Of a DNA stretch of 64,000 nucleotides, positions 46,071 to 64,000 are shown piece by piece. The notes below the pieces were generated by a model that saw only the letters and a program-made list of their open reading frames with translations, searched no databases and was not told the DNA's origin. The stretch's first letter is position 1; each line of letters begins with the position of its first letter. The stretch comes from Akkermansia muciniphila (GTDB lineage: Bacteria > Verrucomicrobiota > Verrucomicrobiia > Verrucomicrobiales > Akkermansiaceae), in NCBI GenBank assembly GCA_945890645.1, contig CAMDCV010000015.1:1-64000 (forward strand), in the 5' to 3' direction. The position numbers were made by a program, and so were the translations under genes.

Positions 46071-46076
46071 TTGACT

Positions 46077-47993
46077 ATGAATCAGGGAGAATCCATCATC
46101 ATCAGCGCGGAGGCGCTCAAGAGTCTGCGCGAGATGCGTTACAATCCATCGCGGAACATCACTGCATCCCGACTCGGCACGATTTTGGATGCTTACGAGT
46201 ATGGTGAAATCCGTGAGGGGGCGATGCTGTTTGAGCAAATCGCCGAGCGTGACGACACGCTGAAATCGGTGAAGCCAAAGCGCGAAAAATCCGTGAGTGG
46301 TTTGGTGCCGGTCTATGAGGTGTCACGCAATGGTGGTGCGCTCGGTGAAGAGCAAGCGGATGTGCTGCAAAATTTCTGGGGTAGCGTGCGTGCGACGAAT
46401 GCCTATGACCGCAATGTGAGCGGCGGCCTGCGCCTGTTGATTCAGCAGATCATGCTCGCTGTGAGCTATCGCTATGCATGCCATCACATAGTGTGGAGTC
46501 CGCGTGCGACGGGTCTGACGGCAACCTTTGAATATGTGCCGTTGTGGATGTTTGAAAACAAAACGGGCCGCCTGCGCTTCCTGAAAAATCCGTATGATGT
46601 GAATGGCCAGGACATGGAGCCGGGCGAATGGATGGTCACCGCCGGTGAAGGCCTGATGATCGCGTGCAGTATCGGATGGTTAGCCAAGAGAGAGACATAC
46701 AATGATTGGCTGATTTTCAGCTCGCGATTTTCCACGCCGGGTGTGCTCGGACGCACGACGCATGCTAAGGGCACGCCAGAGGGCGAGGCAATGAAACAAG
46801 CGGTGCAGATGTTTGGCCGTGATCTGAAGGCCGTGGTCTATGGTGACAATGGCACGATTAAGGATCCGATCCAGCTCGTGCAGGCCGATGGCAGTCCGAA
46901 TGGCCAACCGATGCCCGCGCTGATCGAGCGTGTGGATCGCAAATTCGCGGCACTGTATCGTGGTGCGGATCTCGGTACCATGAGTGCCGGGAGTGGCGAG
47001 GGCAGTGGTGCCAGTCTGCAAGGTGACGAGGCGTTGATTTTGTTAGATGACGATCGCGCCCTGGTAGAAGAGAAGATCGCGGAGATCAGCAAGATGGTGC
47101 TGGAATGGCACTATGGCGGGGATGTGGAAATTTTAGCATCGGTGAAGCTCAAGACGCGGGAGGAAATCAAAGTGGCTAGTGATCAGTCAGCAGTGAGCAG
47201 TGGGGGGAAGAAAAAAGACGCTCAGAAACAAGACGAGAGACTTGATGCAGAGAATGCAGTGGTGAAGAAAGACGATGATCTTGAATCGTTGAGTGAGCTT
47301 TTGCGCGATGGCTTTGCTGATGTGGCTGCTGTGCTCGAGGAAGCGCTCAAGGCGACCGGCGACGAACGCACTCGTCTGCTGCAGGAGGCAGCGGCGATGC
47401 TCCCGGATCAGATCGTGGACGATGCGCTCGATGCGGAAGTGACGCGGTTGCTTACGGCGGCATTTCTTGGTGAGGATCAGGAGAGCGAGGAGGTCGAGAA
47501 TGGTGATTTCAAAGGCCATCCGTTTCGGGGTAATCAATGGAGCAAGCGTCCGAAAGGAACGGGTAAGCCTAAGAAGGCTAAACGGTTGAGTAAAATTTCC
47601 GAAGTATTAAACGCGGCCTTTGATGATCCAGACAATCGCGATTTTACAGATTACCAACAACTGGGAGTTAAGGAAATTGCAGCGATCGAAGCACGAGCTG
47701 GGCGAGTACCAGCGGAAGTTGGATCCTTGGAAAATGTTCATCGCACATTAGAAGCGGAAAAGGCGATGAAGATTTTAGAGAAACACTCGAATGATCGTTA
47801 TCCGGTCACGGAGCAAGATTTCGAAGCGCTCCCGATCTATCTCGCCGCGCCTGATAAGCAGGAGTGGCAAATCAAGTCGGGCAAGACGCCACGTTTGGTT
47901 AGCACCATCAGACGTGGTCGTGACTTGCTGATCATTGAAGAAGTTCAAACAGGAAACCAGCGGCTCACTGTCTTGAGCATGTATCGCCCATGA
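46077..47993 (+). CDS. Portal protein (Mu gp29/DUF935-like) with C-terminal nuclease-toxin-like tail
   Basis: 638 residues from the ATG at 46077. Residues ~1-380 are the portal (MLFEQIAERDDTLKSVKPKR ... VPLWMFENKTGRL ... GNEALILLDDD-type end region), forming the DNA entry ring. Then come a 7-nt repeat-encoded linker, an acidic helical part, the motif GDFKGHPFRGNQW (about residue 482-494) and a ~130-residue terminal domain closing PIYLAAPDKQEWQ ... LLIIEEVQ ... LTVLSMYRP. That end resembles phage-borne Barnase/EndoU/colicin/RelE-like nuclease domains (PBECR type) usually fused to head proteins; this assignment is from pattern memory. Confidence 0.82.
   Translation: MNQGESIIISAEALKSLREMRYNPSRNITASRLGTILDAYEYGEIREGAMLFEQIAERDDTLKSVKPKREKSVSGLVPVYEVSRNGGALGEEQADVLQNFWGSVRATNAYDRNVSGGLRLLIQQIMLAVSYRYACHHIVWSPRATGLTATFEYVPLWMFENKTGRLRFLKNPYDVNGQDMEPGEWMVTAGEGLMIACSIGWLAKRETYNDWLIFSSRFSTPGVLGRTTHAKGTPEGEAMKQAVQMFGRDLKAVVYGDNGTIKDPIQLVQADGSPNGQPMPALIERVDRKFAALYRGADLGTMSAGSGEGSGASLQGDEALILLDDDRALVEEKIAEISKMVLEWHYGGDVEILASVKLKTREEIKVASDQSAVSSGGKKKDAQKQDERLDAENAVVKKDDDLESLSELLRDGFADVAAVLEEALKATGDERTRLLQEAAAMLPDQIVDDALDAEVTRLLTAAFLGEDQESEEVENGDFKGHPFRGNQWSKRPKGTGKPKKAKRLSKISEVLNAAFDDPDNRDFTDYQQLGVKEIAAIEARAGRVPAEVGSLENVHRTLEAEKAMKILEKHSNDRYPVTEQDFEALPIYLAAPDKQEWQIKSGKTPRLVSTIRRGRDLLIIEEVQTGNQRLTVLSMYRP
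47171..47205. repeat. Five-unit 7-nt repeat inside the portal coding sequence
   Basis: AGTGGCT AGTGATC AGTCAGC AGTGAGC AGTGGGG, 35 bp, translated as a linker (VASDQSAVSSG) between the portal core and its extension. Same family as the intergenic arrays. Confidence 0.75.
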
Positions 47994-48136: not shown

Positions 48137-49435
48137 ATGAAACTGAAATCGACAAACTACATCGGGCGTTGGCTGTTGCCGATCGCACCACTGATCATCA
48201 CGTATTCCCTGCCCCGCGAAGAGTGCCATAATGCCACTGCCGAACGCATCGAAGAATGTCACAATGTGGATGAAGCGAACGCGCTCGAGGAAGAGGATGG
48301 CTGGTTCAAGGTTTCTCCGTATGGAGCGTTTCCAGGCAAAGAGCCGGGACGCATTCAAAAGTTCGGCAAAGCTGAGGCACAGTTGATGGAAGTGCATTTC
48401 AATTCGCTTGCTGGCAAGCTTGGCCGGGTATTTCGCGGTGCACCGATTTTTATCGGTCATCCGGATGTGGATCGCACGCTATGGCCTGACGAACGTCGCC
48501 TGGGCAAGGTGGCAGAAATTCAAGCCCGCGCGGATGGCCTATGGGCACGCCCGGAATGGAATGCGCTGGGCCGCGAGAACATCGAGAACGGTTACTGGAT
48601 CTATCCCTCGCCACGATGGGATGCGCCGAAGGGCAAACAGGAATTCCGCCCAGACCGATTGCTCTCCATCGGCCTTACCAATATGCCGCGCATTAAAGAG
48701 AGTGATCCCATCGCGAATGCGTCTTTTGCTCAAGCGATCGACGAGATGAGAAAAGGTGTGGATCAGAACCAAGATGCGGCTGCTGCGGCGGGTGTGAGCG
48801 ACTCTGAAAATGTCGTGCATAATAAAAATCCCGAGACGGAAACCTCTCAACAAACAAACATTATGGATCGCAAATTAATGATCGAAAAGCTGGGTCTGCC
48901 GCCGGAGGCGACGGACGAGGAAATTTGGGCAAAGCTTGATGCTATGCTGAAAGAAAATGCCGACATGGCCGCTACCGAAAAAGCCAAGCTCGATGCGGAA
49001 GCGGAAAATCAGGGCTCAGGGGGCACGGGTCCGGAGTCAGGTAAAGAAAAAGTGGCAGCTGCGGAAGATGACGAGCTTGCGAAAGCCCGCATGGAGACCG
49101 CGAATGCACGCGTCGATCTTGCGATCGCAGAGGGGCGCATTGGCCTTTCTGAACGTGATGCATGGCTCGGTCGCCTCACTGGTGAAAACCGCGAGACGGA
49201 ATTCAATTCTCTGACTGCTCTCAAGCCTAAGCTCAACACCGGCGCGCTGGATCTGAAAAAGGCCCGCACGGAGATCGGCGATGAAGCGCAACGCCGCGAG
49301 ACGATTGCCAATGCCGTGGCAGTGGAGCAGGCGAAGGGTAAGACCTACAGAGATGCTTACCTGGCCGTTCAAAACAACCCTGAATTTAAGGCCGTGTTCG
49401 AAGCCATGAAAGAGCCGGACAGAGAAGAAAGCTGA
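48137..49435 (+). CDS. Head maturation protease with scaffold region (Mu I/Z-like) and REECHNA leader
   Basis: 432 residues. Residues 1-50 are an unusual extension: MKLK start, hydrophobic stretch (~9-25), then REECHNA (27-33) and a second copy IEECHNV (38-44). The Mu gp32-like protease follows (DGWFKVSPYGAFPG ... APIFIGHPDVDR ... RLLSIGLTNMPRI, ~54-200). The C-terminal half (from ~240) is a charged scaffold with MDRKLMIEKLGLPPEATDEE and a long helix. An internal ATG at 48863 could yield a free scaffold, as Z from I in Mu. It cuts scaffold and capsid during prohead maturation. Confidence 0.85.
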   Translation: MKLKSTNYIGRWLLPIAPLIITYSLPREECHNATAERIEECHNVDEANALEEEDGWFKVSPYGAFPGKEPGRIQKFGKAEAQLMEVHFNSLAGKLGRVFRGAPIFIGHPDVDRTLWPDERRLGKVAEIQARADGLWARPEWNALGRENIENGYWIYPSPRWDAPKGKQEFRPDRLLSIGLTNMPRIKESDPIANASFAQAIDEMRKGVDQNQDAAAAAGVSDSENVVHNKNPETETSQQTNIMDRKLMIEKLGLPPEATDEEIWAKLDAMLKENADMAATEKAKLDAEAENQGSGGTGPESGKEKVAAAEDDELAKARMETANARVDLAIAEGRIGLSERDAWLGRLTGENRETEFNSLTALKPKLNTGALDLKKARTEIGDEAQRRETIANAVAVEQAKGKTYRDAYLAVQNNPEFKAVFEAMKEPDREES

Positions 49436-49463
49436 AATGCGGAAAATCTGAAACACTGAAATT
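49432..49463. repeat. Four-unit 8-nt tandem repeat (CTGAAANN)
   Basis: CTGAAATG CGGAAAAT CTGAAACA CTGAAATT. The protease gene's TGA stop (49433-49435) lies in the first unit. Confidence 0.75.
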
Positions 49464-49492
49464 TGAAAGCAGAACTAAGAAAATTTTGACTT

Positions 49493-49702
49493 ATGAAAAA
49501 TGATACAGACACCGGCATTGCCGAGACCATGAAGACAGCCGCCACGGAAGTGGAAGCGCTGAAAAACCAGACATCGGCACCGAAGGGTGTGACGGAAGAA
49601 GAAATCGCGAAGAAGGTCGCTCTTGGCCTGACCCGCGCACAAGCAGTGGAAGTCCTCGAGCGTGATGCTGAGGAAACCAAGCCCAAGGGGAAAAACAAAT
49701 AA
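49493..49702 (+). CDS. Small head-region protein (69 aa)
   Basis: Helical and charged (KTAATEVEALKNQTSAPKG ... TEEEIAKKVALGLTRAQAVEVL) with a Lys-rich tail. It lies between protease/scaffold and decoration protein genes and lacks the REECHNA leader. Function unknown. Confidence 0.6.
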   Translation: MKNDTDTGIAETMKTAATEVEALKNQTSAPKGVTEEEIAKKVALGLTRAQAVEVLERDAEETKPKGKNK

Positions 49703-49743
49703 GTCCCTCACCTCTTAATCTCAATCAACATTAAATCAACAAC

Positions 49744-50232
49744 ATGAAAAAGCATAATATCATTGCAACCATCGTCGTGCTGCTACTCGCAGCGTATCAT
49801 TCGTTTCTTCAAGTCTTCGACCGTGAGGAATGTCACAATGCCCTGGCGAATTCTCCGCATCCAAACGGGGACATTACCCTGGCATCTGAATTCACGCCTA
49901 CCTTGACTCACCTGATGGTGAAAAAGGGTGCGGCTGCAGGCGGCTTCGCTCTGTGTGCGGCGACCGATAAACCACTCGGCCCTTGCACGGACACACCAAC
50001 GTCCGGAGAGAAAGCGAACGTGCGCCATCTGGGTGCCGCAACCGGCACTTGTGTCGGTCGTGGATCCAAAGCGATCGCCGCTCAAGTGGAAGTCTATACG
50101 ACGGCCGCTGGCAAGCTCACCGACACAGCCGTTAATAACTCCTACCTTGTGGGAACGAGTGTCACGGCCTGTACCGGCGACGGCGCGGAGTTCGAGTTCG
50201 TGCCCTGCTATCCCGTGAAGCAAACCGTCTAA
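49744..50232 (+). CDS. Head decoration-like protein with REECHNA leader
   Basis: 162 residues. The leader is MKKHN, a strong hydrophobic helix (~7-25) and REECHNAL at 27-34, the same residue positions as in the protease. The rest (SEFTPTLTHLMVKKG ... AAQVEVYTTAAGKLTDTAVNN ... CTGDGAEFEFVPC) is beta-rich and resembles small DUF2190/head-stabilising proteins of siphophages. No alternative start codon lies between the leader and the domain. Confidence 0.72.
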   Translation: MKKHNIIATIVVLLLAAYHSFLQVFDREECHNALANSPHPNGDITLASEFTPTLTHLMVKKGAAAGGFALCAATDKPLGPCTDTPTSGEKANVRHLGAATGTCVGRGSKAIAAQVEVYTTAAGKLTDTAVNNSYLVGTSVTACTGDGAEFEFVPCYPVKQTV

Positions 50233-50273
50233 TTCAACCTCTAGCACCTCTAACGTTTCTCAATCAATTCAGT

Positions 50274-51380
50274 ATGAAAATCAAATCATTACTCCACATC
50301 GTGGCCACTCTTGCGAGTGTCGCCTTCACTCAACGCGAAGAGTGTCACAACGCCCTCTCACGTTCCAAACAGATCGACGCGGAAAAGCATCGCGAAAGCG
50401 TGGCAAACGCGCTCGAACGCATCGAGTCTCGCCGTTGGGATAATCCCTACACTGGTGCCGCCGTGCACGACCGGATCGAGGAGGCGAATGCTTCCCTTTT
50501 CGACAATGCGAACTACTCGGAAGGTCTGACGAACTTCGCGCTTGGTATTCCGAACGACGGTGAAGCCCTGCGTGCTGCTCGCGATGCGATCGCACCCTTG
50601 GTTCCCGTTGGCCGTCGCTTTGAATATGCCTCGCATACCAAAGCCGAGCTGCTCGAAACTGATGCCGACGATGAACGTTCCGTGGGCTCTGACTTCAAAG
50701 AGTTGAAGTTCACGCAAACCATGGTGCAGGACAAGCTCGCGAATCGCGGCTTGACCATCACGGTGGATGAAGATGAAGTTGGCTCGATTCCGAACTGGGA
50801 TCAGGTCTATACGCAACGCCTGGTCGATCGAATGGACCGCAATGGCCTAGTGCGTGACATCGCGCTACTCGATGCCGCTGCTACCAACACCGCACGGACT
50901 TGGGATACGACGGCTGGCAAAGATCCGGATGCCGATCTCAAAGCCGATCTGCTTCTCAGCGGTGACGGCGGTGGCCTGCAAGCCAATCGCATTGTCTTCG
51001 GTGAATCCGCCTGGACCAAACGTTTCCTCAGTCACCGTGCGCAGACGGGTGCCGGTGGTTTCGCCAGTGCTGGCCTCACGGAAGATCAACTCGCTGCTCT
51101 CCTTACCGTTGACATGGTGGCAGTCATCAAGAGCCGCGCTACCAGTGGCAGCACGTTTCCGCAGATCGCCGGTTCGAAGGTGTATTCGTTCTTTGCCCTC
51201 CCTGGTCTCATGGCCGAGGATGCAAGCAACATCAAACGCTTCTACGGTAACGTAGAAGGCAGCCGCTACCGCGTGTATAAATACCGCGTGGGTGCAAAGC
51301 TCTGGAAGATCACCGTGGAATGCTACGAGCGCACTCGTATCACTTCGCTGGCTGGCATTCGCAAATCGACCATCAGCTGA
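50274..51380 (+). CDS. Major capsid protein with REECHNA leader
   Basis: 368 residues. The leader is MKIKSLLHIVATLASVAFTQ followed by REECHNAL (21-28). The body shows HK97-fold capsid features of the Mu/siphophage type: RFEYASHTKAELLETDADDER, IALLDAAATNTARTW, RIVFGESAWTKRF and a C-terminal KITVECYERTRITSLAG. It follows protease and decoration genes, as in Mu-like head modules. A membrane-targeting leader on a capsid protein is unexpected; the phage protease probably removes it, which is inference. Confidence 0.82.
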   Translation: MKIKSLLHIVATLASVAFTQREECHNALSRSKQIDAEKHRESVANALERIESRRWDNPYTGAAVHDRIEEANASLFDNANYSEGLTNFALGIPNDGEALRAARDAIAPLVPVGRRFEYASHTKAELLETDADDERSVGSDFKELKFTQTMVQDKLANRGLTITVDEDEVGSIPNWDQVYTQRLVDRMDRNGLVRDIALLDAAATNTARTWDTTAGKDPDADLKADLLLSGDGGGLQANRIVFGESAWTKRFLSHRAQTGAGGFASAGLTEDQLAALLTVDMVAVIKSRATSGSTFPQIAGSKVYSFFALPGLMAEDASNIKRFYGNVEGSRYRVYKYRVGAKLWKITVECYERTRITSLAGIRKSTIS

Positions 51381-62199: not shown

Positions 62200-64000
62200 T
62201 TACTTCGCATTCACTGTTAGACGCTGACGTAGGGATTTTGCTCGCTGTCGAAGGTCGGCAGCATCGAACGCAATTTCCATACTAACAAGACGATTTTCCA
62301 GAATAAATGCAAGACGTGATCCATCTGCTGCGAAAAATGCATCCGTGACAGATATGCCAGGTTGTTCTGTGAGAATCTCTCCATCACGCAAACGAACGAC
62401 ACGCAATATTTTAGTATCATCCATGCTAGTATTCACAGCGACCATAGTGAGTGCGTCATCAATCGCGATTGCATCAGTGAAGCGCGATTGCACAGCACTA
62501 GTTTTTTTGTCCACAATCGTAACAACTTTATCCCATCTAGACGTCAGCACTATATTGTTTGAATCTGGCAAAATCTTGGCTGTTGTGGAAAACCCATCGG
62601 ATTTAATTTGCCCTATTAATTGAAGGTCTGGAAAGCTCCACCACTTCATCATCGATCCAGAGTTGCCGACAAGCAGCTTCTCATTATCAAGAAACTGCAG
62701 ATTGTTATCTGGTTTTTCGTCGTGGGAGAATACCTTGTTCGCAGTGGAATTTTCCAAATCAACACGCCACCATTGGTTATAAGTCGCAAGTAAGCACCAG
62801 CGACCGGATGGACTGATGGAGAGGGAGTTGATAGATGTTTGTAGATCCTCAGCAAACGAAAATGTGCGTATCGACTTGCCGGTTGCACTCGCAAAAATTT
62901 CTATCGTGCCGTCGCCACGCGCTTCAATTACTTGAGCCCCGTCTGGGGAAAATGTTGTGGCACTGGACCACTCTGATTTTTGAGTGTGCGTGGAAAGCAA
63001 TTTTACTTTAGTGAGGGCATTTTCTTTGAAACCAATGATATGCAATCCTTCGGCATCTTGTGCTAAAGCTTGTCGTCCCGTCCTAGCTAGCTGATATTCT
63101 CTTGCTGGCACGCGACCAAGGAGTTGCCCACTGGTCCAGTCAAAAAAACTGGTTTCCCAGCCCTGAGGGATTTCTCCCATCATAGGAAAAGAGGGATTAA
63201 CCATGAGCCAGTTGGCGGTCAGATTTACAGAAAATCGAAGATTCGTTTTCGGAGGTTCTACGAGTCCTTTGAACTCTGCCATCGCACATTGTTTGGAAAT
63301 ATCATATTTCGTGACTTGATCCGTACCGCTTATGAAGAGAACCGAAGGCGTGGGATCGCTAGCGTTAAGGGGGATTTCGTTGATCAATGAGCGTGCTAAG
63401 GGAATCTCCGCTTCTACCTGATACGGGCACTCCGTACGGAAGAGTGAAATGATACCGCGCTGGTCTCCCATGGCGATTAGTTTCCCGTCGGGAGAAAGGG
63501 AGAGACTCTCTGCTTCATTCGACAATGTCATATGCCATGATTCTTTCGGTCGAAACAATTGTGCCACATTGTATTTCCCTAAAATGGCGGCGACAGGACT
63601 GACCGCATCATGCCAAGCAATCCCTGCGGCATCGTATGAGGAGCGCGGTTGCGCAATTCGTCCAAGATCATTCGCCACCATAGCAATCAGTTTCTCAGAA
63701 TTGCCAGTGAGCCCGTTGACCCCAACTTCGCGCAGCCAAGTATGGGATCCAGAGTCATCATCCTCAACTTGATGAGACACAATAAGCTTGCCATCACTAG
63801 CACGCCATACGCCGATCGACAGTAATGTATCGCCATTCCAAACAAGAGCGGCAAACGCTGTCTTATCATGTGATGGAATGAAGTGGGTTAATCTCAATTT
63901 TTCCATAGGAGAAATTCCTTCTAGGACACCTCGCTCTGCGCCATCACCACCGAGCGTGTAAAGTCTAACGCTTTGTAGGGGATCGACGAGTAGTACGACG
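62200..64000 (-). CDS. Beta-propeller (WD40-like) protein, 5' end beyond the window
   Basis: At least 600 residues; the reading frame continues without stop past the ATG at 63906 to the window edge (… SVRLYTLGGDG … GVLEGISP), so that ATG is probably internal. Repeats such as SLSPDGKLIAMGDQRG, FSPDGAQVIEARGDG and ISPSGRWCLLATYNQ are WD40/YVTN-like blades. In Planctomycetes and Verrucomicrobia such propellers are often fused to Ser/Thr kinase domains, which could lie outside the window. Ends about 70 bp from the prophage right end, so the insertion did not disrupt it. Confidence 0.75.
   Translation of the reverse strand, partial: VVLLVDPLQSVRLYTLGGDGAERGVLEGISPMEKLRLTHFIPSHDKTAFAALVWNGDTLLSIGVWRASDGKLIVSHQVEDDDSGSHTWLREVGVNGLTGNSEKLIAMVANDLGRIAQPRSSYDAAGIAWHDAVSPVAAILGKYNVAQLFRPKESWHMTLSNEAESLSLSPDGKLIAMGDQRGIISLFRTECPYQVEAEIPLARSLINEIPLNASDPTPSVLFISGTDQVTKYDISKQCAMAEFKGLVEPPKTNLRFSVNLTANWLMVNPSFPMMGEIPQGWETSFFDWTSGQLLGRVPAREYQLARTGRQALAQDAEGLHIIGFKENALTKVKLLSTHTQKSEWSSATTFSPDGAQVIEARGDGTIEIFASATGKSIRTFSFAEDLQTSINSLSISPSGRWCLLATYNQWWRVDLENSTANKVFSHDEKPDNNLQFLDNEKLLVGNSGSMMKWWSFPDLQLIGQIKSDGFSTTAKILPDSNNIVLTSRWDKVVTIVDKKTSAVQSRFTDAIAIDDALTMVAVNTSMDDTKILRVVRLRDGEILTEQPGISVTDAFFAADGSRLAFILENRLVSMEIAFDAADLRQRAKSLRQRLTVNAK

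Follow-up and report, generated by a model that had tools for sequence, protein, structure and literature searches.

In phage T4, several head proteins are made with short N-terminal propeptides that end in one motif, and the protease, gp21, also processes itself (PMC9026906). In phiKZ and SPN3US (gp175/gp245), a set of N-terminal propeptides is likewise removed by motif-defined cutting, and each contains multiple sites (PMC10052503, PMC9026906). The HK97-fold major capsid protein (MCP) precursor of HK97 and D3 loses a helical N-terminus, the delta or scaffold domain, that lies before the N-arm (PMC12749128), and in Mu the protease/scaffold gene I/Z is found with the MCP gene T. These systems are compared here with the head module of a Mu-like prophage in Akkermansia muciniphila, encoded on contig CAMDCV010000015.1 of assembly GCA_945890645.1; positions 1 to 64,000 of its forward strand are referred to as the window. 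The head maturation protease, the capsid cement protein and the MCP of this phage share, near their N-termini, the heptapeptide REECHNA, whose first six residues form a candidate protease site ending in asparagine (Asn). Genomes related to the host at genus or family level are named as Akkermansiaceae or Verrucomicrobiaceae, which by inference places the host in Akkermansiaceae.

The window system would work like the multi-substrate propeptide processing of T4 and the phiKZ-type phages, yet it is not classed with them, because the residue at P1 differs. The motifs of T4 and the phiKZ-type phages end in glutamate (Glu; L/I-x-E, A-x-E), with A-X-E or S/A-X-E in phiKZ and SPN3US, which are unrelated large myoviruses, whereas the constant residue of the window phage is Asn, within a phage-specific x-x-[A/H/S]-N. 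Unlike T4, the window phage also has the cement protein among its predicted substrates, with a leader that in its group is usually transmembrane-like. Propeptide processing of several head proteins is known; what would be new is the apparent Asn specificity and the use of a cement protein as substrate, and no description of a shared Asn-ended tag system was found in the open-licence papers searched. The claim in a preliminary description of this DNA that no such leader was known on capsid proteins was too strong, since head proteins of T4 and the phiKZ-like phages share cleavable propeptides (PMC9026906, PMC10052503).

In contrast to HK97 and D3, the N-terminal part of the window MCP comprises about 72 residues, the scaffold is separate and fused to the protease, and the tag is common to other proteins. 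Mu shares with the window phage the protease family (PF10123) and the gene order, and Mu gpI has Asn immediately before its domain (MKKHAIGIAALN|ALS; IAALN|ALS) as well as AALSA-type repeats in its scaffold. The Z scaffold of gene I (L098:2557-3639) contains five [AVS][LV]SA repeats (VAALSA, ASLSA, VAALSA, IAALSA, VAVLSA), which may be equivalent cleavage sites. Mu differs in that no cement gene lies between I/Z and T. In addition, a record note gives the start of gpT as confirmed by sequencing of amino acids, which means that the MCP of Mu undergoes no such N-terminal processing. A literature search on gpI cleavage found nothing useful.

Three copies of REECHNA in the head module

The three genes lie on the plus strand. 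The first (48137..49435) encodes a 432-residue Mu-like head maturation protease with a C-terminal scaffold, which matches PF10123 (Mu-like_Pro; E=5.9e-15, 56.1 bits against a curated cut-off of 25.2) and the head maturation protease family phrog_328 (E=9.1e-18). Among 22 relatives, including Mu gpI, Ser158 is invariant and His108 (GHPD) is at least 90% conserved, and membership in PF10123 points to a catalytic role for both. The second gene (49744..50232, 162 residues), described earlier as encoding a decoration protein, has no Pfam or PHROG match. Its AlphaFold2 model (mean pLDDT 89.9) consists of a hydrophobic helix at residues 3-24, a low-confidence linker containing REECHN and a beta domain whose best Foldseek matches are Pam3 8hdt_G, HFTV1 8qsy and phi29 gp8.5 6qyy (E 4e-5 to 4e-4); as judged from this match of a model to solved cement structures, the product is a capsid cement protein. 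The third gene (50274..51380) encodes a 368-residue MCP precursor with the HK97 fold, assigned by phrog_1005 (major head protein, E=1.5e-10) and by Foldseek matches of its model to HK97 Prohead I/II, the HFTV1 capsid and the Bordetella phage-related protein 3bjq.

REECHNA occupies residues 27-33 of the protease (48215-48235), residues 27-33 of the cement protein (49822-49842) and residues 21-27 of the MCP (50334-50354), and a second copy in the protease, IEECHNV, occupies residues 38-44 (48248..48268), all in agreement with the preliminary description. EECHN is absent elsewhere in the six frames of the 64-kb window, and the degenerate DNA pattern GARGARTGYCAYAAYGC has three matches in the 3.8-Mb host genome, all of them the REECHNA copies. 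The looser pattern [RI]Exx[AHCSV]N[ASTVE] has six matches in the window, all in the protease, the cement protein and the MCP, with none in 15 other phage proteins and one in 8165 residues of other open reading frames in the window. Given this uniqueness and confinement to head proteins, a chance origin of REECHNA was rejected.

Six nucleotides vary among the three REECHNA copies, and all six are synonymous third-codon positions, an outcome with a probability of about 1e-4 if changes were unconstrained. The leaders preceding the motif are unrelated between genes, with 2-5 identical residues of 20-26 in ungapped comparison. Since the differences in the motif are all synonymous and the leaders are unrelated, the peptide is the conserved element, as had been proposed from the codon differences. 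An element acting at the DNA or RNA level was rejected on the same synonymous differences. The accompanying statement that no alternative start separates leader from domain holds for ATG, which is absent between leader and motif, but in-frame GTG codons lie inside the cement and the MCP leaders.

Similar N-termini could also arise if leaders had recently been copied between genes and had no function, although this is a highly improbable account of the window. The MCP and cement leaders of one related locus (L080:4056-4150 and L080:5001-5084) are near-duplicates at the DNA level, which suggests that a leader can be transferred from one gene to another by copying. However, the window leaders are unrelated and the motif differences synonymous, and matching of the tag within a phage is seen in about 50 loci whose leaders are unrelated. 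Copying probably explains the spread of leaders, but not the retention of the tag.

The Asn-ended tag in related phages

Relatives were drawn from viral contigs and Verrucomicrobiota genomes, giving about 50 related phages or loci overall. Among cultured Verrucomicrobiota, Brevifollis gellanilyticus (L081) has part of such a module. In these Verrucomicrobiota phages, the protease, the cement protein and the MCP are each extended at the N-terminus, and a short tag closes the extension just before the conserved domain. The near-constant residue of the tag is Asn, most frequently preceded by Ala, and the protease usually has two tags in tandem. Regardless of how long the leader is, the tag directly precedes the domain in all three proteins, as seen in about 40 related loci. 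The close relatives (L006, and G008 = L032/L046/L079), at about 62-82% identity, retain REECHN in the three genes while the leader has diverged. The L006 protease leader is weakly hydrophobic (MKMNPKNYIMRHLLAKPLQ), and in the G008/L079 protease a longer extension, of about 100 residues, lies upstream, with REECHN...AEEVHN still directly abutting the protease domain. An extra module of about 90-100 residues (..GDPxxLDELVKxG..) lies between leader and tag in the L079, L027 and L007 proteases, and the extension before the tag is longer still in the L080 protease.

A DNA scan of viral_contigs for REECHNA matched only the contig of L006, and the exact motif is therefore rare in that collection. As a query, the protease gave weak matches only, and none against viral_contigs; among cultured phages, no match was found for the window MCP or for the L013 cement protein.

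Asn is also conserved at further predicted sites. The Asn of the second protease tag (N48) is near-invariant, and both it and the Asn at the protease/scaffold junction (N194, in the predicted site DPIAN|AS at 48704..48724) are at least 90% conserved in 22 proteases. The MCP has a predicted final site, RIEEAN|AS (50472..50495), where the HK97 N-arm begins, and its Asn, N72, is invariant in 26/26 aligned sequences. In the predicted second site RESVAN|A (Asn45, 50391..50411), six relatives show no change at R40 or N45. The phage-specific tag is repeated in the scaffold half of the protease gene, as RETIAN|A in the window (49295..49315), RESEAN|A and RETIHN|A in L006 (the latter being the equivalent of the window copy), TRVN|A and TRLN|A in L047, and TAAN|E and similar in L095.

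The tags vary across phages but match within one phage. Listed for protease, cement protein and MCP, they are RVAVAN.AAVAN / RVAVAN in L096, PRILRLAN / PRILRLAN in L013, CIAAN / CIAAN in L095, FFAN / FFAN in L023, HLCN / HLCN / HLSN in L026, VRLN / VRHN / TRLN in L047, REAVAN / REIVCN / REVVCN in L090 (on the same contig as L080) and RESVEN..RESDIAN / REECHN in L058. The genome that contains the window has a second Mu-like head module (L049; G000:C2 100000-118000) with a different tag (..ALN). A Cys/His metal or redox site at REECHN that joins the three proteins would agree with the conservation of Cys and His within the close clade of the window. Most relatives, however, retain Asn while replacing Cys and His (RESVAN, RVAVAN, RILRLAN, PRILRLAN, TRLN), and Ala is the residue that most often precedes Asn, leaving the metal site a highly unlikely and unsupported explanation.

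The matching within phages was measured, per phage, as the best match of five-residue words ending in Asn in a phage's own protein pair against shuffled pairings. In 29-30 dereplicated phages, z was 9.3 for protease and cement protein, 7.2 for protease and MCP and 5.9 for cement protein and MCP (p<=5e-5, the permutation floor), and the scaffold covaried with the cement protein (z=5.7), the protease (z=5.2) and the MCP (z=4.9), again at the floor of p=5e-5. When the cement-scaffold comparison used words ending in ten other residues, |z| did not exceed 2.5. An earlier protease-cement run gave z=5.1 for words ending in Ala, as would be predicted from the prevalence of Ala just ahead of the Asn. 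The word definition and the domain offsets were picked after the first set had been viewed, and the cement boundary was shifted by two residues between runs; a second set of 12-14 newly fetched loci is therefore the cleaner test. It replicated the covariation for cement protein and MCP (p=5e-5), protease and MCP (p=6e-4), protease and cement protein (p=0.006) and cement protein and scaffold (p=0.014).

Predicted cleavage by the prohead protease

The position of the tag at domain boundaries, its duplication in the protease, its repeats in the scaffold and its drift in step among the proteins of each phage lead to the reading of REECHN as a prohead-protease site. It is very probably the cleavage site of the phage's own protease (48137), with Asn at P1 and the leaders as propeptides. 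We infer from the sequences that cleavage occurs, which enzyme performs it, that P1 is Asn and what the leaders do. Because the tag changes with the phage, a phage enzyme is indicated rather than a host enzyme, and a host protease as main cutter was disfavoured on this ground. A Sec or lipoprotein signal was rejected by inspection, as no lipobox or AxA follows the hydrophobic stretch and the tag is phage-dependent (REECHN, RVAVAN, RILRLAN). Of the possibilities originally offered for the motif, a propeptide with a recognition tag for the phage protease is the one strongly supported, since the tags of the protease, the cement protein, the MCP and the scaffold covary within a phage.

In the proposed scheme, the protease, the cement protein and the MCP would each be synthesized as a precursor carrying an N-terminal propeptide. 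As the head matures, the protease would cut itself twice after the tag Asn, at REECHN|A and IEECHN|V, tandem sites of a kind also seen before the domain in relatives, and again at the scaffold junction. It would also cut the scaffold at RETIAN|A; a scaffold is expected to be destroyed during head maturation. The MCP would be cut after Asn26 (REECHN|A), after Asn45 and lastly after Asn72, and the cement protein after Asn32 (REECHN|A), the REECHN|A sites in these two proteins being predicted from their own sequences and those of relatives. Each phage lineage would have its own version of the tag, with enzyme and substrates drifting in step. The hydrophobic leader would add another layer, less tightly kept; in the cement protein it probably serves as a membrane anchor that can be removed or as a helix that targets assembly. 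Multiple propeptides that share a protease motif, with several sites each, have precedent in T4, phiKZ and SPN3US (PMC9026906, PMC10052503).

Several points weigh against this interpretation. The mature N-termini of the virion proteins are predictions, the permutation test has no model of phage phylogeny (the shuffles ignore it), and REECHN is stricter at the leaders than the scaffold copies (RETIAN) would demand. Cement proteins usually bind the exterior of the mature shell, whereas the protease acts within the prohead, so cleavage of the cement protein would require an early or external step. The cement protein of JBD30 binds only after expansion (PMC11445458). Finally, the sites of T4, phiKZ and SPN3US have Glu at P1 (PMC9026906, PMC10052503), and no prohead protease with Asn at P1 was found in the open-licence literature searched.

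If cleavage at the tag is correct, the mature ends of the capsid, cement and protease proteins could be read from sequence through a shared Asn-ended tag in a large group of uncultured phages. Head propeptide processing would come to include a cement protein as well as an apparent specificity for Asn, and the phages would provide a natural series of co-evolving protease/substrate pairs, about 50 in this analysis. Whether the cement protein anchors head assembly to the membrane would become a testable question.

Hydrophobic leaders and neighboring genes

Leaders were scored as transmembrane-like when the mean Kyte-Doolittle hydropathy reached at least 1.6 over 15 residues. In the main set this was the case for 38/41 cement proteins, with a median of 2.6 over 15 residues among cement leaders, but for only 4/39 proteases and 6/39 MCPs, and the hydrophobic stretch is thus mainly a trait of the cement protein. 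In the clade of the window, the MCP and protease have a similar hydrophobic leader too. Within the window, the cement leader (49744..49821) scores 2.18 over 15 residues and corresponds to the predicted helix 3-24, while the protease leader (48137..48214), a predicted propeptide, is weakly hydrophobic with a best value of 1.47. The hydrophobic stretches had been described as different in sequence but alike in character; the difference in sequence is confirmed, with the refinement that the protease leader of L006 is only weakly hydrophobic.

It is possible, if somewhat short of an even chance, that the hydrophobic leader is the functional part, a membrane signal-anchor through which the prohead would be assembled on the inner membrane, while REECHN would serve as a linker or be cut by a host membrane protease. 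The transmembrane-like cement leaders and the modelled cement helix agree with this, as does the assembly of T4 and SPN3US proheads at the inner membrane, from which they detach upon proteolysis (PMC9026906); for the window phage, such a membrane step is only plausible. On the other hand, L133 (leader MNTIFAN), L022 and L128 retain the Asn tag despite a short or weakly hydrophobic leader, and most proteases and MCPs are without a strongly hydrophobic one. In the second set, the cement leaders of L125, L126, L128 and L133 are short or weakly hydrophobic. A host enzyme of the signal-peptidase type would also not explain a tag that depends on the phage and recurs in a soluble scaffold. A membrane-anchor layer can coexist with cleavage of the tag by the phage protease, and the cement leader may tether head assembly to the membrane.

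About equally tenable, and likewise below even, is the proposal that the leaders act as T4-style capsid-targeting sequences, helices that bind the scaffold or inner shell and recruit proteins to the prohead without a membrane. Many protease leaders combine positive charge with amphipathic character (MKPNFFNSLFKVIRKIL), the MCP model has an N-terminal helical part that reaches residue 52 and is positioned like a scaffold domain, and the capsid-targeting propeptides of T4 are removed by gp21 (PMC9026906). The leader sequence is unconserved, however, and the strong hydrophobicity of the cement leaders is a better match to a membrane than to the surface of a protein. A more specific scheme, in which Verrucomicrobiota Mu-like phages combine an Asn-specific protease of drifting site with a prohead held at the inner membrane by a cleavable cement transmembrane helix, cut by the same protease to free the head, is speculative and rather unlikely in its entirety.

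Between the protease and cement genes lies a small head-module gene on the plus strand (49493..49702, 69 residues) that is without the motif. The portal (46071-47993) has a weak C-terminal match, below cut-off, to PBECR3, a phage-borne nuclease-like domain (E 0.0015), and a WD40/beta-propeller-like protein (62203-63906, minus strand) adjoins the prophage tail genes.

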